This document shows, piece by piece, positions 13,300 to 23,481 of a DNA stretch of 37,260 nt. The stretch spans positions 1-37,260 of the forward strand of contig JAPKCC010000024.1 of the NCBI GenBank assembly GCA_028823105.1, written 5' to 3'. Below the pieces are notes generated by a model. The model did no database searches. It saw only the letters and a list, made by a program, of their open reading frames with translations, and had not been told where the DNA came from. This DNA comes from Phycisphaerales bacterium. Its GTDB lineage: Bacteria > Planctomycetota > Phycisphaerae > Phycisphaerales > SM1A02. The first letter of the stretch is position 1. The number at the start of each line of letters is the position of its first letter. The position numbers were made by a program, and so were the translations under genes.

Positions 13300-14409
13300 T
13301 CAGAAAGCGTTCCGCTTGCGCGGCGGGCCTTCGATGGTCCACTCACCGAGCACGGACGCAATTCTACGCCCACTCCCCCCGTCCCCATAGGGGTGATCAC
13401 CGGGAGTCCTCCCTGCGATCGCCTTCTCGATGGCCTCCGCGATGCGATCGATATCCGGAGTATCGACTTCGATCACCGAAGCGGGCCGTTCGCGACCGGC
13501 CTGACGCGGTCCCAGATTCACCGCCGGACATCCCAGCGCGGCCGCTTCGATGAGGCCGGCGCTCGAATTTCCAACCAGCACGTCCGCTCGGCGAAGGAGG
13601 CCAATGAAGGACGGCCGATCGAGATGCCCGATGACCTGGATCATCGGATCCGTCGCCGCCGCCGCGATGGCTTGATTGACGAACTCGCTCCCGGGATCCT
13701 GATTGGGCCGAAGCACCGCGACCGGACCGTGGCGTCGAACGCCTTCGATTGCGACCTCCGCCCACCGACGTTCGATGGCCGGCGACTGTCCCGCGCCGTG
13801 CAGCAGGAGTACCGACGCGGGTTTTCCCCATTCCGCATGCCGAAAATCGTCTAACGACGCCATCTCATCAAGCCCGTCGATGGCGGGACTCCCGACCACG
13901 TGCACCGTCGACGGCGGCTCGCCGAACTTGAGGATTCGCTCGCCGCTCTCCTCGGTGGCCGCGAAATGAAGGTGGGCAAGTTTCGTGATCGCATGCCGCA
14001 TCGCCTCATCCGCCACGCCCTCCGCTCGATCTCCCCCGTGCACATGGGCCAGCGTTCGACCTCCAATGCTCGCCGCACTGGCCGCCGCGAACGCCTCGAC
14101 TCGATCGCCGAGTACCAGTACCACCTGTGGATCGAGTCGCTCGAAGGCCTCCGCGAAGCCGGATACTCCGCGACCGACGGCGGCCGCATCGGCGGTTCGG
14201 CCGAAGGCTCCTGGCTGTTGCATCTCCACGACCGCGTCGACTCGGACCTGGGATCGCACCTCCTCGATCGTGTGATCGGGAGGAAGCAGATGAGCGCCCG
14301 ACACAATCACCTGGAGGTCGATCCCCACGTGCGCCTCGATGGCGTCGATGGTGCTCCGGAGCAATCCGAAATCCGCCCGCGAACCGGTGATCACTGCGAC
14401 TTTCCGCAT
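13300..14409 (-). CDS. neuC: UDP-N-acetylglucosamine 2-epimerase (hydrolysing), NeuC/LegG type
   Basis: Converts a UDP-N-acetyl sugar to a free ManNAc-type sugar and UDP, the first dedicated step of sialic or legionaminic acid synthesis. 369 residues. Motifs are GSRADFGLL at the N-terminus, VVLVLGDRVEAFAAA, HVHGGDRAEGVADEAMRHAI, TKLAHLHFAATEES, and the UDP-binding GNSSAGLIEAAALGCPAVNLG. The start ATG 14409 overlaps the neuB stop by one base (TGATG), so the two are coupled. Sequence alone does not say whether the substrate is UDP-GlcNAc (sialic acid) or UDP-diNAc-bacillosamine (legionaminic acid); no LegB dehydratase is present here. Confidence 0.93.
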   Translation of the reverse strand: MRKVAVITGSRADFGLLRSTIDAIEAHVGIDLQVIVSGAHLLPPDHTIEEVRSQVRVDAVVEMQQPGAFGRTADAAAVGRGVSGFAEAFERLDPQVVLVLGDRVEAFAAASAASIGGRTLAHVHGGDRAEGVADEAMRHAITKLAHLHFAATEESGERILKFGEPPSTVHVVGSPAIDGLDEMASLDDFRHAEWGKPASVLLLHGAGQSPAIERRWAEVAIEGVRRHGPVAVLRPNQDPGSEFVNQAIAAAATDPMIQVIGHLDRPSFIGLLRRADVLVGNSSAGLIEAAALGCPAVNLGPRQAGRERPASVIEVDTPDIDRIAEAIEKAIAGRTPGDHPYGDGGSGRRIASVLGEWTIEGPPRKRNAF

Positions 14410-15449
14410 CAGGCGAGATCCTCCTCGCGGATCGGCGCGTCCGTCTCAAGCCTCGTTCGCAGAGTTCGACCGATGATTTCATCCAATCGCCAGGGCTCGA
14501 TCCCGTCGGCGGGTCGCTTCACCGCCAGATCACTTGCGGCGAGCACCACGCCGGGCCGGAGTTCGTGCGCCGCTCGTACCGATTGTCGCGCCACGTTCCG
14601 AACGTCCACTTCGATCGCCGCGACCGTCTTCCCGCCGCTTCCAACCGCCTCATAGGAGCGCCTCGTGAAGTTCACGAAACTCGTCAGTCCTTCCCGGTCG
14701 AGACTGACCGCGTGATCGGGGCCTTCCGCATTCCGGTTCCAAGTGAGGTGCTTCTCCAGGAGATGCGCTCCGGCCGCGACCGCCAGACCACCGGTGGTTT
14801 CCAGCGTGGTGTGATCGCTGTAGCCGACGGGACGTCCCGTCGCGTCGGCAATGCTCCGAATCGCCCCAAGTGACGCTTCGGATTCCGGCGTCGGATACGC
14901 ACTGACGCAATGGAGGAAGGCGATGGGCGCTTCCGGAAACCACGCATCGGCTCGCCTCACCTCATCGAGATCCGCCGCGCCGGTCGAAACCAGCATCGGC
15001 CTACCGTCCTCCACCAGCGCCGCGAGCAACGGGCGGTGCACCAGATCCGGAGATGCCGTCTTCCACGCATCCCAGGAGAGCGATCGCGCGATGCTCACGA
15101 GTTCGACGCTGAAAACGGTCACCACCGCATCCAGCCCCGCACCATGAGCGGCTTCAACCAGCCGCTCCATTCCCCGAGCATCGATCTCCAAGCCTCGAAG
15201 CATTGCCTTCTGATCGTGGATCTGCGCTTGACGCTGGTAGGCGGCGACCGCGGACGGATCTCCCACCAGACGGTCTGCTTCGAACCACTGAAATTTCACC
15301 GCATCGACGCCCGCCTCTGCCGCTGCATCGATGAGTTCGAGGCCTCGGTCGACGCTGCCATCATGGTTGACCCCGATCTCCGCGATGATGTAGGTCGAAG
15401 AATTCGGACCGATCGAGCGATCACCGATCCTGAGTTCGGCCGGCGTCAC
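14409..15449 (-). CDS. neuB: N-acetylneuraminate/legionaminate synthase, NeuB type
   Basis: Condenses a ManNAc-type sugar with phosphoenolpyruvate to form a nine-carbon nonulosonic acid in the cytoplasm. 346 residues: a TIM barrel with IIAEIGVNHDGSVDRGLELI, AAEAGVDAVKFQ, the HCVSAYPTPE segment, GYSDHT, and EKHLTWNRNAEGPDHAVSLD holding the metal ligands, then a C-terminal SAF (antifreeze-like) domain from about 285 to 346. The start is GTG 15449, overlapping the neuA stop as GTGA. Together with neuC and neuA it forms a complete three-step set from the epimerised sugar to the CMP-activated acid. Confidence 0.94.
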   Translation of the reverse strand: MTPAELRIGDRSIGPNSSTYIIAEIGVNHDGSVDRGLELIDAAAEAGVDAVKFQWFEADRLVGDPSAVAAYQRQAQIHDQKAMLRGLEIDARGMERLVEAAHGAGLDAVVTVFSVELVSIARSLSWDAWKTASPDLVHRPLLAALVEDGRPMLVSTGAADLDEVRRADAWFPEAPIAFLHCVSAYPTPESEASLGAIRSIADATGRPVGYSDHTTLETTGGLAVAAGAHLLEKHLTWNRNAEGPDHAVSLDREGLTSFVNFTRRSYEAVGSGGKTVAAIEVDVRNVARQSVRAAHELRPGVVLAASDLAVKRPADGIEPWRLDEIIGRTLRTRLETDAPIREEDLA

Positions 15450-16210
15450 GCATGCGCTCCGGATCGAAGGTCTGCGAACTTGCGATCACCCTGGTCTCGG
15501 CTGAGCATCGCCTCCGCCACCAGCAGATCGATCTCGTCATCGACGTCGACCACCGACCCTCGAGCGTTGAGCACACCGCGTCGATCGGCGCCGAGGAAGG
15601 CATGCGGCCGCGCGGGATCGATCTGAAACAATGACGCACGCCGAACCGCGATCACACCGCCGTCGGGAATGTACGCGGCGGGAAGGTCCTGCCTTCGGAA
15701 GATGTCGTTTTCCTCCCACGCACCCACCCGACCATCGTCGTCGACTCGACAGGTCCAGAAAGGATGATGCTTGCCGACCGGAGCATAGCTCTGCACGCTG
15801 TCCGCACCGGTCTCGACGAGGCGGGCCACCGCTCGGTCGATGAGGCCCGCCGGTCTGACCGGAATGTTTCCGTAGAGGATCACCACGATGTCCGAAGTGT
15901 CCTCCACCGCTTCGATCGCCTGCCGCACCGCCGAATCAACCGTCGCAAAATCACCGGCGAGGGATGCGGGGCGATCGACGATCTCCGCACCGACCGCGGC
16001 GGCGGCGCTGGCGATCGCTTCTCCGTCCGTCGAACAGAGGACACGCCCGATGGACCGCGCCGCGAATGCATGTCCCACACTCCGAGAGATCATGGGAACC
16101 CCCGCGACCAGACGAACGTGCTTCCGAGGAAGACCCTTGCTGCCGGCTCGACCGAGCACCACCGCGATGGCAACGCGTTCCTGAATGTTCTCGATGCTGT
16201 CGTCGTTCAT
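15446..16210 (-). CDS. neuA: CMP-nonulosonate cytidylyltransferase, NeuA type
   Basis: Activates the nonulosonic acid with CTP for transfer. From ATG 16210 the protein has 254 residues; GAGG lies 9 bases before that ATG, while an upstream ATG at 16243 has no SD. The nucleotide-binding loop is VVLGRAGSKGLPRKHVR, close to the family pattern ARGGSKGIPRKN. RVLCSTDGEAIA and DRPASLAGDFATVDSAV follow as expected. Where the family usually has LQPTSPLR, this protein has LYGNIPVRP, which departs from the standard motif and may mark a different acid substrate. DVDDEIDLLVAEAML near the end is typical. It precedes neuB and neuC and lies 61 bases after the Maf-like gene. Confidence 0.92.
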   Translation of the reverse strand: MNDDSIENIQERVAIAVVLGRAGSKGLPRKHVRLVAGVPMISRSVGHAFAARSIGRVLCSTDGEAIASAAAAVGAEIVDRPASLAGDFATVDSAVRQAIEAVEDTSDIVVILYGNIPVRPAGLIDRAVARLVETGADSVQSYAPVGKHHPFWTCRVDDDGRVGAWEENDIFRRQDLPAAYIPDGGVIAVRRASLFQIDPARPHAFLGADRRGVLNARGSVVDVDDEIDLLVAEAMLSRDQGDRKFADLRSGAHA

Positions 16211-16271
16211 GCCTGAAAACCTCAATTTGAACTGCGGAATCATCTAGAAAGCGGGTCGAGGGCGAAACCCG

Positions 16272-19200
16272 TCAGGATCTCATGGGGCGGAAAGGCGCGG
16301 GCATTCCGGGCCGGCCGTTGAAGTCCCGCCGGCGTTGCTGCACGACATCCTGCCAGAGGTCATGAAGCGAGCGCTCGCCGACCGTTCCAACGCTGGTCAC
16401 ACCGAACAGGTCGACTGCCGACGCAGGAACGGAACCATCCGCGAGGATCGTCATTCGGGTCGCATTCACCGCCTCGTCATAACGCGCCGGAGGCCAAGTG
16501 GCACTGAGCGGATCCGGGTCGACCCCATAAGATTCCGGCCAGTGAACCGGCCCATCGATGACCGCCACACCCAGTCTGCGCCGCCATCGCTCAAAGAATT
16601 CGGGGATCTCGGCGATGTTCTCGACTCGGCGCACGCATCGGGGGACGATCCAGGGAAGCGCGAAGTCGAGTTCGATGGGGAGCGGCGCATCGGACGTGGG
16701 AGAGAGTCGCCGTCGGCCCGCGATCAGGCGCTCCAGATTCGAGATCACCCGCTCGAAATGGCCGGGGCCGTGAAGGAGTCGGTGCGTCTCTGCAGTCTCG
16801 GCATCGAGATCCACCTCGACCACCCCGACACCCGTGGCGAGAAGGCGATCGACGATCTCCTCAGAAACCGCGAGGTCCGTTCGAAGCGAGACCACCCGCA
16901 CGCCCGCGTCGATCGCCATCTCGATGAACTCGTCGAATCGAGGATGCAGCAGCGGATCGCCGACGCCATGCAGATACAGCGTGGAATCGCCGGTCTTCCC
17001 GAGCGGCTCGATGATTCGTCGGAAGATCGACTCTTCCATGGGCGCCCGCTGGATCTCACCGGCATACGGCGTGCCGACCGGCATCCCGACGCGGCCCGTG
17101 GTGAGCTCCACGCAAAGAAACTGCGGCGAAAGCAACGGCCCCGCCAGGATTCGATGCTCCATCCGGATCGCGAGTTCCGACGCATCCGGCTCGAAGGCAC
17201 GGTCGTCGCGAACCAGCGGCTCGATCGCTCGGCCGATCCGCATGAGCTGTCGCGGAGAATCAACCGCGAATCGACCGATTGCACTGCGCACCCGCGGATG
17301 GGTCGCAACACAGAGGTCGCTCACGATCTGATCACCCTGAGGCCGTTCGGATCGGTATCCCAGCAGATGTCCGACGGTCGCGAAACGCGATCGCCGATCC
17401 GCCATTGCGGTCACCGTGCTTCGCGCGATGATCATGGCCGCCAATCCCGGAGGTCCCTGACTGAACACGTACGGCGACTTGCGACGCTCCGTGAATCTCC
17501 GAACCAGTTCATTGACCCCTCCGGCGCCGGTGATGGGGAGGAGTGACCAGTCCGGACCGACCAGCAAGGCTGCGTCGGCCTCGAATTCTTCGATCGCCTC
17601 GGCGGTGGGCTTCGGGGCCAGCACTTCGTCAAAAGCGGTCAGTCCGTGGATGCCACCTCGCCAGGAAGTCGGCGCCACGGCCCTGGCGATTCGGATCGCC
17701 TCGTGCTCGGGACCGAAGACGCTCTTTCCACAATGACGGATCTCGATCGGGAGTCCGACGCGGGTTCGATCGATGGCGGCCTCCGCGTCGAAACCATCCG
17801 GTACCAGCAACACGATCGCCTCGATCCCCGTCGCGGTTCCCAGGCGTTCGAGCGTTCGCCGGAGCACCGTCCGATCGGCCAGGTTCGATCCCAGGCTCCG
17901 GGACACGCCGGTTCCCCCGACGTCCGGATCCACGGGAACCACCGCGATCACTCTGGCCGCGGCGACGTCTTCCATCTGGATGCCTGCGGTCCGCTCAATC
18001 GCGGACAGGTCATCCTCTCGCTCGGTGAATTTCCCGGTTCGGATCGTCTCGCCCGTCCGGTCGATTAGATCCGCGAGCAGGTTCGAAGCGTCACGAGTCC
18101 ATTCAACGTTGATGATGTCCCGCTCGATCTCGGCTCGCTGCCTCTCGTAAGGTTCGAGTTCCGTCGAGAGTTCGATCCGTCGATCTGCCCGCATCCGCTT
18201 GTAGACCCCGACCTGATTGATCACGTCGATGATTTTTCTCGCGGACTCGCGCTCAGCCACGATTGCCTGCATGGGGGCGAGTCGCTCGAAGAGTTGATTC
18301 ATCCGAGCCTCGTCCCGCTGTGCGACGAGCATTCCCTCAAGGATGTCCAGCGTCTCCCCGGAAGCCTTCGAGACCTCCTGGACCTCGGACACCAGTCGTT
18401 CGAGTCGTTCGGCCACCGCCGGTCGCTTCGCGGGATTGATCTGGACCGCTCGAGGAAAATGAACGACCTTCCGGTCGGTACCTGCATGAGACGCCAAAGT
18501 GTCCGCGAGCGTGCGAGGATTGGCGTTGGCCTTCCGAACGCCACCTTCCGTGGCATCGATCACGGACAGCCCCGATGCAACATCAGCGGCGAAACGGATC
18601 TCGAAAGACTGAAGATAGTTCAACATCTGCGAATCGGTGAAGATGCGCCGACCGTGGACATCCTCACGCTCCGCGAGGTGGGTGCGATGCCGCACAATGC
18701 GTTCCCACTCCATCGTCTCGATCGTGTTGAATGCATTCAGCTCCGGAAGCCAGACGTCATGGATCGCGGTGCCGGGGGAATAATAGAGACCGTCCGTGAA
18801 TCCAAGGTCCTGCCCGATCAACGCCACCGGGTCGCATCCGAGATGGCGAGCGAAGACATAGGCGAGATGAGCAACCGTCGCCGAGGCTTCGAGTGAAGGA
18901 TGCCCCTTCGCCAGCGGCCCGAGGAACCGATCAAGTTCGGGGGAGGGAATGCAGCGGAGGCGACCCGGCCACGCCGCGGGCACCGCCCGATTGACCTTCG
19001 AATCGATCACCAGTTCGGTGTCTTCAACGGCCGCAGGATTGATGCCCTCATAGAAGCGCCGCGAGATCGAGTGGTAGTCGAGGGCGGTGACGAAGTGCGG
19101 AGCCACTCCGGCATCCAGAAGTGGTTTCAACGTCGTCTGCGTCGCCACGATCACGCATCGATCACGAACCCCGGGCGCCGCGAGCAACGGAAGATTCCGC

Positions 19201-19961
19201 CGAAGACTCGGGCCCGCGCTGACCACGATTCCCAGGCGTCCGGCGGCGATACCGGCGAGATCGTCGATGCCGGATCCCAGCGCGTAGTGATCGAGGTTTG
19301 AAAGTTGATTTTCGATCGTGGCACTGCATCGGGTCAGTGCGGTGTAGATCGAGGTTCGAGCGGTCGCCGTGATGTCGACGAGCGAACGGGTGAAGATGGT
19401 CGTCGCGCCACTCAGTCGGATTCGGCTCGGTGGGTGCTCGACGATTAACGTTCCGAGCATCAAGATCGACTCGAAACCACGAAGTCCCGACGCAAGTCCC
19501 GCCGCATCGTCCGCGTCTACCCGAAGAAGGATCCGGCTCTTGGTGATCCAGTCGGTGGCATCGATTCGCGACAGGACCGCCTTCAGGAGCGCCGCATCCG
19601 TTTCGAGCACCAGAAGAACACCGGTCCGCCCAAGGCGACGGGCGATCATTTCGACATGATCACCGAGTCCGAATCCGGCCACCACAATGCAGGCGGACTC
19701 GCGGTAGTCAATGTCCTCGATCAGACGTGCCGTCTCTTCGCCGGGGCGACGGGCGCTGGCGAGCCGACGTCCCATCCAGCTACCGGTGAGCCGGCCGTCT
19801 TCCGCCCTCTGCAGGTCAAGCGGGAGGTCGTCGGCGGCTCGAATTGCCTCGACGGCGGTGCGATTCAGTGTGCCAAGTGCGTCAAGATTTGCGTCCAACC
19901 GGTCGATTGAAACCGATGGAATCGCGGTTGATTCACGTTCCTGCGAAGTCGTCATTCCCAT
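16272..19961 (-). CDS. Three-part Maf-like protein: motility accessory/glycosyltransferase, SpsF-like domain, cysteine-free radical-SAM-like domain
   Basis: 1229 residues. (a) About 220-480 is a Maf/DUF115 domain: GRLGIVVSAGPSLRRNLPLL, ALIGQDLGFTDGLYYSPGTA, GRRIFTDSQMLNYLQSFE. Maf proteins are needed to attach nonulosonic acids to flagellin. (b) About 500-660 is helical. (c) About 668-900 resembles a SpsF-like nucleotidyltransferase fold (VIAVVPV...ADRTVLRRTLERL), degenerate. (d) 947-1215 follows the radical SAM then SPASM plan: FLCVELTTGRVGMPVGTP, LYLHGVGDPLLHPRFDEFI, TILADGSVPAS...SLHDLW, but with no CxxxCxxC and no SPASM cysteines, and GDP in place of GEP. It is probably not a working radical SAM enzyme. 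The start is ATG 19961 or 19955 (an SD of GGAGGTGA lies 1 and 7 bases away respectively). The gene heads the run before neuA, neuB and neuC, which supports a role as the transferase of the acid they make. Confidence 0.9.
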   Translation of the reverse strand: MGMTTSQERESTAIPSVSIDRLDANLDALGTLNRTAVEAIRAADDLPLDLQRAEDGRLTGSWMGRRLASARRPGEETARLIEDIDYRESACIVVAGFGLGDHVEMIARRLGRTGVLLVLETDAALLKAVLSRIDATDWITKSRILLRVDADDAAGLASGLRGFESILMLGTLIVEHPPSRIRLSGATTIFTRSLVDITATARTSIYTALTRCSATIENQLSNLDHYALGSGIDDLAGIAAGRLGIVVSAGPSLRRNLPLLAAPGVRDRCVIVATQTTLKPLLDAGVAPHFVTALDYHSISRRFYEGINPAAVEDTELVIDSKVNRAVPAAWPGRLRCIPSPELDRFLGPLAKGHPSLEASATVAHLAYVFARHLGCDPVALIGQDLGFTDGLYYSPGTAIHDVWLPELNAFNTIETMEWERIVRHRTHLAEREDVHGRRIFTDSQMLNYLQSFEIRFAADVASGLSVIDATEGGVRKANANPRTLADTLASHAGTDRKVVHFPRAVQINPAKRPAVAERLERLVSEVQEVSKASGETLDILEGMLVAQRDEARMNQLFERLAPMQAIVAERESARKIIDVINQVGVYKRMRADRRIELSTELEPYERQRAEIERDIINVEWTRDASNLLADLIDRTGETIRTGKFTEREDDLSAIERTAGIQMEDVAAARVIAVVPVDPDVGGTGVSRSLGSNLADRTVLRRTLERLGTATGIEAIVLLVPDGFDAEAAIDRTRVGLPIEIRHCGKSVFGPEHEAIRIARAVAPTSWRGGIHGLTAFDEVLAPKPTAEAIEEFEADAALLVGPDWSLLPITGAGGVNELVRRFTERRKSPYVFSQGPPGLAAMIIARSTVTAMADRRSRFATVGHLLGYRSERPQGDQIVSDLCVATHPRVRSAIGRFAVDSPRQLMRIGRAIEPLVRDDRAFEPDASELAIRMEHRILAGPLLSPQFLCVELTTGRVGMPVGTPYAGEIQRAPMEESIFRRIIEPLGKTGDSTLYLHGVGDPLLHPRFDEFIEMAIDAGVRVVSLRTDLAVSEEIVDRLLATGVGVVEVDLDAETAETHRLLHGPGHFERVISNLERLIAGRRRLSPTSDAPLPIELDFALPWIVPRCVRRVENIAEIPEFFERWRRRLGVAVIDGPVHWPESYGVDPDPLSATWPPARYDEAVNATRMTILADGSVPASAVDLFGVTSVGTVGERSLHDLWQDVVQQRRRDFNGRPGMPAPFRPMRS

Positions 19962-19962
19962 G

Positions 19963-19970
19963 TCACCTCC
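19963..19970 (-). promoter_or_regulatory. Perfect 8-base Shine-Dalgarno sequence for the Maf-like gene
   Basis: On the minus strand GGAGGTGA matches the 16S rRNA 3' end in full. It is one base from ATG 19961 and seven bases from the in-frame ATG 19955. The spacing does not decide between the two starts; it does suggest strong translation of the 1229-residue protein. Confidence 0.8.
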
Positions 19971-20059
19971 GCGACGGGATAGGCTTCTCTAGATGGAACC
20001 GGCCCGATCGGCGCCGTTCCCTGACCTCTCGGCACTCCGCCGCTTCTTGGAAGATCGTC

Positions 20060-20665
20060 ATGCCCGATACCGCACGCTCTGGTTTCCTCACCAATTTCGT
20101 GCTTGAGAATCCATGGCCGCTCGCTGTGGTCCTGGTCATCGTGGCGGCGACCATCTTCAGGCTCGCGGTCCATCGCGATGATCGCCGGCTTCTTATCCCT
20201 GCGGCGACCGTCTTCATCGTCGCCGGCGTGGCCCTCGTGATTGGCCTGCTGGTGGAGACTTCCGGTGAAGCTGCCGCCGATCGAACGCGAGCCTTCGTCG
20301 CCGCGGCGAGCGACGGTCGAATCGACGAAATGCTCGTAAGCCTCGATCCGGATGCGACCCTTCACATTGGACGGATCGAGAGTCCCGGTCTTCCGATCGA
20401 AGAACTTCGGCGAATGATCGACGCCCTCGGTTCGCGGCATCGAATCGAACAGAACACGATCACTCTCCTCAATTCGGTCGGAACCGGTTCGAACACCGCA
20501 TTGGTCGAACTTGCCTGCCTGACGAGGACGACGTCGAGCCTCGGCACCGTGCCCACTCGTTGGCTTCTGGAGTGGGACCGCGGGTCCGGAGATTGGCAGG
20601 TTCGGTCGATCACCGCGATTTCGATCGCCGGTCGGACGCCCACCGGGCGCCAAGTCCTTCCCTGA
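20060..20665 (+). CDS. Membrane protein with a C-terminal NTF2/SnoaL-like domain
   Basis: 201 residues from ATG 20060 (GGAAG, 6 bases upstream). Two membrane helices are visible at about 20-36 and 44-65. The remaining 130 residues, exposed on one side of the membrane, read as an alpha+beta cone fold of the NTF2/SnoaL type: RTRAFVAAASDGRIDEMLVS, then LDPDATLHIG and later strands ending in SGDWQVRSITAISIAGRTP. That fold call is inference from pattern. The gene is divergent from the Maf-like gene with 98 bases between starts. A longer frame from 19844 would overlap that gene's coding start and is not used. Confidence 0.82.
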   Translation: MPDTARSGFLTNFVLENPWPLAVVLVIVAATIFRLAVHRDDRRLLIPAATVFIVAGVALVIGLLVETSGEAAADRTRAFVAAASDGRIDEMLVSLDPDATLHIGRIESPGLPIEELRRMIDALGSRHRIEQNTITLLNSVGTGSNTALVELACLTRTTSSLGTVPTRWLLEWDRGSGDWQVRSITAISIAGRTPTGRQVLP

Positions 20666-20757
20666 CGCGCCTCCCGGCATTCCATCGACCGGTAATCGGC
20701 TTCGACGGGAGACCAGCAAGACCTTCGAACGCCGGCGATTCATAGAACGTCGCAACG

Positions 20758-23481
20758 TCATTCATTCACCAATGCGGTATCGACGGTTCGAGCACCACCG
20801 GCGATCGGGATCAGCGACGTCACGCCGAGTGGACCACCGAACTCGGTAATGATCACCCGAATATCCGTCTGCGCCAGTCGGGCCAGTCCGCCCTTGAAGT
20901 GGAATCGACGGACCGCGCGTTCCCCGGGCTTGAGCGCCGAAATCGGTCGTCGCTCGCGCCCGGAATGCCAGGCAACCGCTTCCATCTGAAGGTCTATCGG
21001 CCGGTCGCCGTGATTGATCACCTCAGCGCTGACGACGATTCCAGGACTTCCGTCGACCGCCGAGGTCGTGAGCGCCCAGTCGGTTCGGACTTCAAGCGTC
21101 TCGTTCCGAACCTCCATCGGAATCTCCGCATGGAACCGGATGGTCGAATCGGCTTCGAGAAGGACGGCGATCGGAACTCGCATCTTGCCCGCGACGGGCG
21201 GAGTGGTCCAGCGAACCTCGATGGGCACCCGAGCCGTCCCGCCAGCCGCGATGCGGACGTGGAGCCGCGCGGGTTCGATCGACCAGCCACGGGGGACGTC
21301 GATTTGGGCTTCACCCTCCAAGGCCACTGATGTCGGATTGTGAATCAGAAGATGGACGTTCTGCGGGCCGGCCGCGAGATCCATCACTTCGGGATCGAAT
21401 CGCATGCGAGCTGCGATTTCGACCGTCGCTGCGGACACTCCGTGGATCACCTTGGGAGTTGACCCGACCACCAGTTCGATCATGCCACCGCGTGGTACGA
21501 AGCGTTGACCGCGTCCTTCCAGATCGACCACCTCGACCGGCTGATTACCGACCGGTACGCGGACGAGCTCGGCGGAACCTTGCACTTCGGACCAGACGAC
21601 GAGATGTGATTCATCGGTATCGCCGGCAATCCAGCATCGTGCGGTGGGCGACAACGGAATTTCGCCCTTGAATCGTCGGCCCGAGAGCGTGCCGTTCAAC
21701 CCGGTCCAAGCGAGCATCGTCGGGTCTGGACCGGATCCCGGATCCCATGGAAAGAGAATTCGATCCGCATCGGACCGCCACGCGACGAGCAGCCGACGCG
21801 CCGCAGCATCCACTCGGTCCTTCGAAAGCCAGTCGTGTGGAGGTGATTCGATTCGGATCGTCGCGTTCGAGACGACACCCGGCGCGAACAGTTCATCCAT
21901 GGCGATCGCCGAAAGATCCGGCTTGCTCATCACGAAGAGTTCGTCCCCCCATCGGGCGTCGAGGGTATCGGGATGCTGCGAAATGGCTAAGACCGGATCG
22001 ACGACGAGATCTTTCATCACTTCTCGGAGGTTCGTGAGATCGGGTCCCGATCGAATGCCGCCAGGAATTCGCCAGCGATCGACGGTGGTTCCAAACCGAT
22101 CCATCCACGACCCGAGCGAGGCGAGACTGATCGAATCGTCGCCCAGCATCGCCGCATACACCTCGGCGGGCTTGAGCCGGGCGGCCCGCGCCAATCCGCG
22201 GTGGAGCCGATCGACGGCCAGCATCGGTTCGCGATACTCGGCACGTTGCCTTTCGAAGATTCTCTTGAGCGACGGAATCGCATCAATGCTTGTGAGTTCG
22301 TCGTTGGCTTCCGGCCAGATCGAGAACTCGATCGCACCGGGGTCGAGTTGCTCGATGACGGTGGCGATATCGTCGAGGTCGACGGCCTTCCACTCGGGGA
22401 TGGAATAGCCGAGACTCGGAACGCCGCTTGGTCGCCGCCTCACCTCGTCGGGTAGAACGAGGAACGAGAGATCTCGGAAAGTCTGTTCCGGCCCCGCTCC
22501 GTTCACCTGCAGACGCGCGTGATACCAGCCCGGAAGTGGCACCTTCACGCTGGCGACCAGTGGCCGTCCACTCGAGAGCGCTCGGATCGACCGCCGCTCG
22601 ACGATCCTGCCGTCGAGATCGCTGATCTCGAGCATCACGGTGGGAACCGGCTCGATCGGATCATCGATGGCGATGCGGAGTTCGACCGGACCGGGATATC
22701 GCACGATGCCCGAGGGCGAGACGGACTCAAAGTCGACCCAGGGAAGTTGCCAGACCGCGAGATCATCGAACCAAATAGTGCCGGTGACGTCCTCGATTCG
22801 GGGTTCACCCGCGACCGTCCGTTGCAGCCCCGCTTCCTCTTCGAATCCCGGTTGTGTCACCTGCATGGCGACCACGAACCGGAGGTCGGACGCGGCGGCC
22901 CGGCACGCGTCTCCCGAAGTGTCGACATCGACCACCAGTTCCCGCCATTCACCTTTGGTCCGAACTGCCTCAGAGACAAAGGAAGCCACCGTGGCGACTT
23001 CAATCGCGTCCGACATTCCGGCGGCATGAGAACGATCGAGCAGGTCGCCGTCCACGAGCCGGACTTCGAGTCGGGCCGACGCATGCTGGAGATCGAGCGT
23101 TCGCACCGAGCCGACGAGTTGAAAACGGGAATCGACGTTGGCGGGGAGGCGGACTTCCGGTCGAGTTCGGTACGAAACCGAGCCGCCGAAAATGTGGATT
23201 CGGAGACTCCAGTCACCACGCCTTCGCTCGTCCTCGTCGACGTTCGCCGTGAAGAACCGTCCCTTGGGCGGGAGTCCATTCGCCTGCTGGAAGACATGCG
23301 ACCAGTCGGCCTTTTGAATCTCTTCAAAATCGAAGCGATGGACCAATCGCCTCGTGGCCGGAGGCGCCTCCACCCCAGTCTCGACCGGCACGGCCATCAC
23401 CAACCCCGCCGCCGGGATCGAGAGAAGCGCCACGATCCCGATCAGGGTCCGGAATCGCCCCGTGGAAAACAACAAGTGCAT
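20758..23481 (-). CDS. Large exported multi-domain protein, glycosidase-like, unknown specificity
   Basis: 907 residues from ATG 23481. Signal peptide 1-30 (RTLIGIVALLSIPAAGLVMA, cleavage after Ala30). After it comes a beta-sandwich region (about 45-260) with the look of a carbohydrate-binding module (FDFEEIQKADWSHVF), a further beta region, then about 350-640 a probable TIM-barrel portion (SIPEWKAVDLDDIATVIEQL, MLAVDRLHRGLARAARL, WRSDADRILFPWDPG), and a C-terminal series of beta-sandwich domains resembling those of some glycosidases. I cannot point to the catalytic pair, so activity is unproven. A longer frame to 23748 runs across the divergent gene and is rejected. The protein is probably periplasmic or secreted. 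Confidence 0.8.
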   Translation of the reverse strand: MHLLFSTGRFRTLIGIVALLSIPAAGLVMAVPVETGVEAPPATRRLVHRFDFEEIQKADWSHVFQQANGLPPKGRFFTANVDEDERRRGDWSLRIHIFGGSVSYRTRPEVRLPANVDSRFQLVGSVRTLDLQHASARLEVRLVDGDLLDRSHAAGMSDAIEVATVASFVSEAVRTKGEWRELVVDVDTSGDACRAAASDLRFVVAMQVTQPGFEEEAGLQRTVAGEPRIEDVTGTIWFDDLAVWQLPWVDFESVSPSGIVRYPGPVELRIAIDDPIEPVPTVMLEISDLDGRIVERRSIRALSSGRPLVASVKVPLPGWYHARLQVNGAGPEQTFRDLSFLVLPDEVRRRPSGVPSLGYSIPEWKAVDLDDIATVIEQLDPGAIEFSIWPEANDELTSIDAIPSLKRIFERQRAEYREPMLAVDRLHRGLARAARLKPAEVYAAMLGDDSISLASLGSWMDRFGTTVDRWRIPGGIRSGPDLTNLREVMKDLVVDPVLAISQHPDTLDARWGDELFVMSKPDLSAIAMDELFAPGVVSNATIRIESPPHDWLSKDRVDAAARRLLVAWRSDADRILFPWDPGSGPDPTMLAWTGLNGTLSGRRFKGEIPLSPTARCWIAGDTDESHLVVWSEVQGSAELVRVPVGNQPVEVVDLEGRGQRFVPRGGMIELVVGSTPKVIHGVSAATVEIAARMRFDPEVMDLAAGPQNVHLLIHNPTSVALEGEAQIDVPRGWSIEPARLHVRIAAGGTARVPIEVRWTTPPVAGKMRVPIAVLLEADSTIRFHAEIPMEVRNETLEVRTDWALTTSAVDGSPGIVVSAEVINHGDRPIDLQMEAVAWHSGRERRPISALKPGERAVRRFHFKGGLARLAQTDIRVIITEFGGPLGVTSLIPIAGGARTVDTALVNE

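Follow-up and report, generated by a model that had tools for sequence, protein, structure and literature searches.

A Maf glycosyltransferase of Phycisphaerales fused to a predicted radical SAM/twitch-type barrel without cluster cysteines

We identified a fused gene in the window (the whole stretch of 37,260 nucleotides analysed) which encodes a 1229-aa protein. In this protein a Maf glycosyltransferase is joined to a C-terminal module that consists of a cytidylyltransferase-fold domain and a predicted radical SAM/twitch barrel. The features of the locus, all on the minus strand, are as follows:

16272..19961 (-): fused gene, 1229 aa, Maf glycosyltransferase plus cytidylyltransferase-fold domain plus predicted radical SAM/twitch barrel without clusters
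18021..19874 (-): Maf glycosyltransferase part, residues 30-647, from PF01973 and superposition on 5mu5
18792-19313 (-): MptE-like Pfam match, residues 217-390 of the fused protein
17967..18011 (-): linker between Maf and the module, of low model confidence, residues about 651-665
17112..17960 (-): predicted cytidylyltransferase-fold (GT-A-like) domain, residues 668-950, from superposition on 6oew
16284..17135 (-): predicted radical SAM/twitch barrel without clusters, residues 943-1226, from PF04055 and superpositions on SuiB, MoaA and BtrN
17067..17102 (-): former CxxxCxxC loop, TTGRVGMPVGTP, residues 954-965, with R957 at the position of the first cysteine
16941..16967 (-): GVGDPLLHP, residues 999-1007, at the position of the GGE/GEP motif
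16344..16484 (-): remnant of the twitch/SPASM auxiliary-cluster domain, residues about 1160-1206, free of cysteine
15446..16243 (-): PseF-like cytidylyltransferase, the next gene downstream (TIGR03584, E 1.5e-23, 83.6 bits, under the cut-off)
14409..15449 (-): NeuB-family nonulosonate synthase (PF03102, E 7.6e-58)
13300..14409 (-): NeuC-type UDP-GlcNAc 2-epimerase (TIGR03568, 289.9 bits, over the cut-off)

A Pfam scan of the 1229-aa protein gave the MptE-like match (PF01973) at residues 217-390 with an E of 8.9e-31, and the N-terminal part of the fused-protein model (residues 30-647) superposes on the Maf protein of M. magneticum (5mu5) with a Z of 22.8 and an rmsd of 6.5 over 518 aligned residues. 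A phmmer search with just the Maf half gave no hit to a solved structure at E 0.01; a profile search with A6 finds 5mu5 (E 8.4e-6). Within the linker, pLDDT falls below 50 at model residues 622-625 and 631-636 of the 1200-aa AlphaFold2 model. An ORF upstream of the fused gene (19952-20761, minus strand, 269 aa) was first read as a member of the operon and then dropped as probably spurious. Since this ORF looks spurious, the fused gene is probably the first of its own operon. The strand opposite to the ORF carries, from an ATG at 20060, a membrane-protein-like sequence at 20060-20665 (+), MPDTARSGFLTNFVLENPWPLAVVLVIVAATIF... In two relatives (L031 and L179) the gene is split over two overlapping frames, with the break in L031 inside Maf near window residue 545; the split is either a frameshift or a real fission elsewhere than at the joint between Maf and the module.

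The original prediction had described residues 947-1215 of the protein (about 16317-17123) as following a radical SAM/SPASM plan, and both profile and structure searches bear this out. Radical_SAM (PF04055) matched residues 994-1080 (E 8.7e-8, 32.9 bits), exceeding its cut-off of 29.5 bits, and scored 35.5 bits on the C-terminal 302 aa alone. The match starts at profile position 47 of 166 (43 for the C-terminal fragment), so that the part of the profile which bears CxxxCxxC is unmatched. SPASM (PF13186) reached only an E of 0.3 in the C-terminal 302 aa, and the best NCBIfam matches of the fused protein (W_rSAM_matur, 41.4 bits; spiro-SPASM, 40.9 bits) are both far under their cut-offs. The AlphaFold2 model was of high confidence for residues 660-1229 (67 sequences; pLDDT 92.5, pTM 0.93) and of fairly high confidence for residues 30-1229 (50 sequences; pLDDT 89.3, pTM 0.84). 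A radical SAM barrel was predicted for the C-terminal half and aligns with radical SAM enzymes at Z 19-21: residues 943-1226 of the model superpose on SuiB (Z 21.1), DesII (20.2), MoaA (19.5) and BtrN (19.1). According to the model, residues about 943-1226 are a radical SAM/twitch-type partial (beta/alpha)6 barrel without cluster cysteines. A remnant of an auxiliary-cluster domain does occupy the proposed SPASM position, and it is more exactly of the twitch (one-cluster) type than SPASM. The barrel also does not stand by itself: it is accompanied by the cytidylyltransferase-fold domain, as in spiro-SPASM. In the predicted model residues 668-950 superpose on a Leptospira cytidylyltransferase (6oew; Z 19.1, rmsd 3.1, 223 residues) and on CMP-Kdo synthetases (Z about 14.5).

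In true radical SAM enzymes the GGE/GEP motif binds SAM. The corresponding motif of the window protein is GVGDPLLHP, in which aspartate replaces the glutamate as had been noted. Likewise as predicted, the CxxxCxxC motif is absent: when the window protein is aligned jointly with four canonical radical SAM/SPASM proteins, all of which have the three cysteines, its R957 takes the position of the first cluster cysteine, and its second and third positions hold no cysteine. The canonical proteins (L218-L221) are ordinary radical SAM/SPASM-type plasmid genes; a plasmid search with an unfused relative returned such genes, and none of its 25 records covers 80% of the query. Only two cysteines, C950 and C1109, are present in residues 930-1229, neither of them at a cluster position, and no auxiliary-cluster (SPASM/twitch) cysteine is left in the window protein.

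The comparison was extended to 75 proteins of the order (the window protein and 74 from relatives) and 17 proteins from elsewhere in the phylum, one of which is truncated. The latter, used as outgroup, were obtained by searching 392 genomes of this phylum for the cytidylyltransferase-like domain; 44 genomes were positive, 27 in the order and 17 outside. Left out were four weakly matching ordinary radical SAM proteins (L084-L087), together with other matches that were weak or incomplete, among them those in G021, G037 and G093. The fusion state of L029 and L054 is undefined, and L031, despite the break of its ORF within Maf, was included among the fused proteins. Homologues that keep CxxxCxxC, sought in order to place the loss on a tree, were not found: none of the 91 usable module-bearing sequences, window included and unfused and phylum-wide ones too, has the motif at the right place. 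Nor does any of 80 module ORFs from 79 named loci have it, although these probably overlap to a large extent with the 91. As a control, L084-L087, from the same genomes, do carry CxxxCxxC. Because the loss is common to all module-bearing sequences compared, a sequencing error or frameshift was ruled out as its cause, as was a loss specific to the lineage of the window, which is excluded by this comparison together with the tree. The position of the first cluster cysteine holds arginine in 67 of 75 proteins of the order against 2 of 16 usable outgroup proteins, in which the position is mixed (two arginines, two gaps).

The twitch cysteines follow a different distribution. All four are kept in 16 of 16 usable outgroup proteins, which are unfused; among the 19 unfused proteins from the order, 17 have at least three, so that the 35 usable unfused proteins divide into 29 with all four, 4 with three and 2 with none. 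The 54 fused proteins comprise 50 with no twitch cysteine and 4 with one. The spacing in L121 is C-x17-C-x44-C-x2-C. When the PDB was searched with a profile built from 11 unfused proteins, BtrN was hit at E 2e-14, and the four twitch cysteines line up in the alignment.

A quick maximum likelihood tree, calculated without the twitch columns, placed the fused proteins in one clade (44 of 79 rows, SH-aLRT 100). For this tree 13 of 92 rows were left out: six of the same genus, L135, L054 and L029 (contig edges), L031 (broken), and L035, L039 and L047 (divergent Maf). A careful tree of 59 thinned rows, with 20 more rows left out, supported the fused clade (31 rows) and the outgroup split at 100/100 each. 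The plainest reading of these sequences is that CxxxCxxC was lost before the divergence of the members compared, that fusion to Maf happened once, within the order, and that the twitch motif was broken on or just after that branch, the latter wording being required by the single remaining twitch cysteine in four fused proteins. The loss did not take place in the fused gene itself: CxxxCxxC was already gone in all members compared of a family spread over the phylum, and it is the twitch cysteines that went at or soon after the fusion. As there was only one fusion, the link between fusion and cysteine loss rests on a single event, and an independent-pairs test of the two has no power. Two unfused proteins without twitch cysteines (L065 and L067) branch separately in the tree and hint at additional independent losses, and the patchy spread across the phylum (44 of 392 genomes) makes transfer between lineages possible. 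Maf is a separate gene directly before the module in 18 of 19 unfused loci of the order; in the outgroup, 8 of 17 loci have it nearby and in the same orientation. In one genome (G127, L128) the unfused module gene lies between two Maf genes, one on each side, on the same strand.

The gene neighbourhood was compared over the named loci. A PseF-like gene follows downstream on the same strand in 76 of 79 loci, with the start of its match 1.2-3.6 kb behind the start of the module match, and NeuB (67 of 79) and NeuC (64 of 79) are found downstream as well, some contigs ending early. In the outgroup, PseF, NeuB or NeuC was seen in at most 3 of 14 loci. Three records named otherwise, Limnohabitans (L149), Candidatus Kuenenia (L155) and Vicinamibacteraceae (L189), have the same gene set as those named Phycisphaerales and are probably mislabelled genome bins. 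Among 101 genomes, the module was found in 79 (two of these by weak or partial matches: an ordinary radical SAM protein with CxxxCxxC, L086, in G031, and a 97-aa frame in G037) and flagellin in 78. Both were present in 74 genomes, only the module in 5, only flagellin in 4 and neither in 18 (Fisher p 5e-12, without correction for kinship). NeuB was found in 74 of the 101 genomes, 71 of them with the module, and no NeuB match was obtained in eight module-bearing genomes. The genome of the window has three flagellin matches. Maf proteins transfer nonulosonic acid to flagellin, and by analogy such a transfer by the Maf of the window would fit its NeuC/NeuB/PseF-like operon and these flagellin matches. 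Flagellin was undetected in five module-bearing genomes (G004, G032, G045, G057 and G058), so the target may not always be flagellin. In G032 (L039) and G045 (L047) the Maf part is also very divergent, and the target may differ there; it may differ too in G058 (L054), where the module is present.

The barrel is under strong purifying selection. Between the window and four close orthologues (L138-L141, 85-86% identical) its dN/dS is 0.076-0.096, compared to 0.104-0.125 for Maf and 0.102-0.144 for the cytidylyltransferase-like domain. Constraint is weakest on the twitch remnant (0.141-0.289) in each of the four comparisons. For the more distant L142 and L143 (dS 1.2-1.8) the values are 0.17-0.18 for the barrel and 0.21 for Maf. 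Conservation was scored in 38 fused rows, six same-genus rows having been left out beforehand; ten divergent fused rows, chosen by eye, were treated separately. R957 and R1111 are each conserved at 100%, D1002 at 97%, R1027 at 95%, and W1104 and R1108 at 92% each, and all six are unlike the residues of the four canonical proteins. T1028 and W1126 are invariant as well. In the predicted model (strands at model residues 289-292, 335-338, 364-369 and 445-451; protein numbering is 659 higher) strands 1, 2 and 3 have R957, D1002 and R1027 at their C-terminal ends or beyond, and W1104 is the first residue of strand 5, with R1108 inside that strand and R1111 directly after it. It is on the face at the C-terminal ends of the strands that the radical SAM fold has its active site. 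Most of the ten divergent rows are without GxGDP and half are gapped at R957; R1027, W1104, R1108 and R1111 are kept in them at 90-100%. A group of divergent fused proteins (L078-L083, L075 and L059, all but L059 from family f2) has lost GxGDP and mostly the R957 region, and mostly keeps R1027, W1104, P1107, R1108 and R1111; judged by their sequences, they are a further step of the same drift.

That the fold had been reused, as originally proposed, is supported by this constraint (low dN/dS and new conserved residues); the non-redox role in binding or scaffolding that was proposed with it is what we infer here. Probably, the C-terminal half is a pseudoenzyme that serves Maf as a non-redox binding module. 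A cytidylyltransferase-fold domain would be followed by a barrel that lacks the cysteines to hold either the SAM-cleaving [4Fe-4S] cluster or an auxiliary one, and the module would do no radical chemistry. Metal binding through residues other than cysteine is conceivable. The former SAM/cluster face would now carry R957, R1027, R1108 and R1111 together with D1002 and W1104. Because these conserved arginines lie about where SAM and its cluster sat, we favour the binding of an anionic partner, whether donor or acceptor: they would suit a CMP-nonulosonate, through its carboxylate or phosphate, or flagellin as the acceptor. The module may thus work as the binding part of a flagellin glycosyltransferase, the bound donor or acceptor being held for transfer by Maf, which suggests an old redox enzyme turned into a binding module.

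A pure scaffold, in which the barrel would only mediate dimerisation, or docking of Maf to flagellin or the CMP-nonulosonate synthetase, and the pocket would stay free of ligand, agrees with the fusion to Maf, the operon linkage and a full-length model that is fairly confident (pTM 0.84). We regard it as unlikely, since in the predicted model most of the newly conserved residues are found at barrel strands or strand ends, where a ligand would sit; the exception is R1083, newly conserved (95%) and off the strand ends. The strong constraint, the new set of conserved polar residues and the sugar-biosynthesis operon would suit a new, non-radical active enzyme in which the SAM pocket has been rebuilt as a catalytic site with the conserved Arg, Asp, His and Trp (e.g., for sugar or nucleotide chemistry). 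This is rather improbable, as no acid-base or metal site is recognisable, the His of GDPLLHP is also present in three of the four canonical proteins, and GxGDP is lost in most of the ten divergent fused rows while the arginines are kept. A decaying, functionless relic carried along by the fusion, to which the loss of both cluster sites and the faster evolution of the twitch remnant would point, is hardly credible given a barrel dN/dS below that of Maf itself, invariant new residues and the presence of the module in 79 of 101 genomes.

Returning to the binding module, a longer history can be proposed more tentatively. A former CMP-sugar synthetase and a former radical SAM/twitch enzyme may both have lost their chemistry and come to hold donor or acceptor jointly for a flagellin glycosyltransferase. 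The module would have begun as a phylum-wide (perhaps spirochaete-shared) partner protein keeping only the auxiliary-cluster site; with the one fusion to Maf, that site too would have been dropped and arginines would have replaced the SAM cluster. Annotation by profile would assign this barrel to the radical SAM proteins, which rank among the largest enzyme superfamilies. In the family described here the fold is kept throughout under strong selection with the cofactor gone, and the order of the losses can be read from the tree, with unfused members that have an auxiliary-cluster site and no SAM cluster. The family would offer a clean case of a radical enzyme that became a non-redox part, and may also be relevant to the way Maf locates its donor or acceptor.

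Several known systems share parts of this architecture. The fold of residues 668-950 is common to SpsF/KdsB-type cytidylyltransferases (6oew and the CMP-Kdo synthetases). CMP-sugar cytidylyltransferases have an N-terminal signature with conserved Arg and Lys. In a HMMER alignment of the unfused family with one solved chain (6oew), the 6oew segment QARMGSTRLPGK is altered at both arginines and at the lysine, which makes cytidylyltransferase activity doubtful on sequence grounds. The solved Maf chain (5mu5, 632 residues) is matched within the Maf part of the window protein, which adds the module. BtrN, a twitch radical SAM dehydrogenase (PDB 4m7t), is the best solved sequence relative of the 11 unfused proteins; passages of two papers describe C16, C20 and C23 for its SAM cluster next to a four-cysteine auxiliary cluster (PMC9012708, PMC6231123), and one of them (PMC6231123) presents BtrN as being of the twitch type, with a single [4Fe-4S] cluster bound by these four cysteines. 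Unlike BtrN, the window protein has neither the SAM-cluster cysteines nor the auxiliary-cluster cysteines. A pseudo-SAM family is already known by name in NCBIfam, the 'pseudo-SAM/SPASM protein' TIGR04347, which matches weakly (window, E 0.025; unfused relatives, at most 43.5 bits; cut-off 525). The open-access literature gave no paper with 'spiro-SPASM' and none joining planctomycete, flagellin, glycosylation and Maf, and in the four open-access papers with both 'radical SAM' and 'pseudoenzyme' neither term occurs in any title or abstract. The closest family is the uncharacterised spiro-SPASM (TIGR04321, NCBI's name), which has the same domain order as the planctomycete module and is the best family for all eight unfused relatives scanned, the best of them scoring 159.2 bits over positions 75-506 of 510. 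All eight are under the cut-off of 250 bits, and the window protein scores 40.9-44.5 bits, a weak match with its best stretch at 189-377 only. By sequence comparison, the spiro-SPASM architecture appears to be matched by the cytidylyltransferase-fold domain plus barrel, a likeness drawn from the profile and the planctomycete relatives; in contrast to spiro-SPASM, the window protein is fused to Maf and has no SPASM cysteine. The comparison suggests a function for the spiro-SPASM family, that of a Maf partner.
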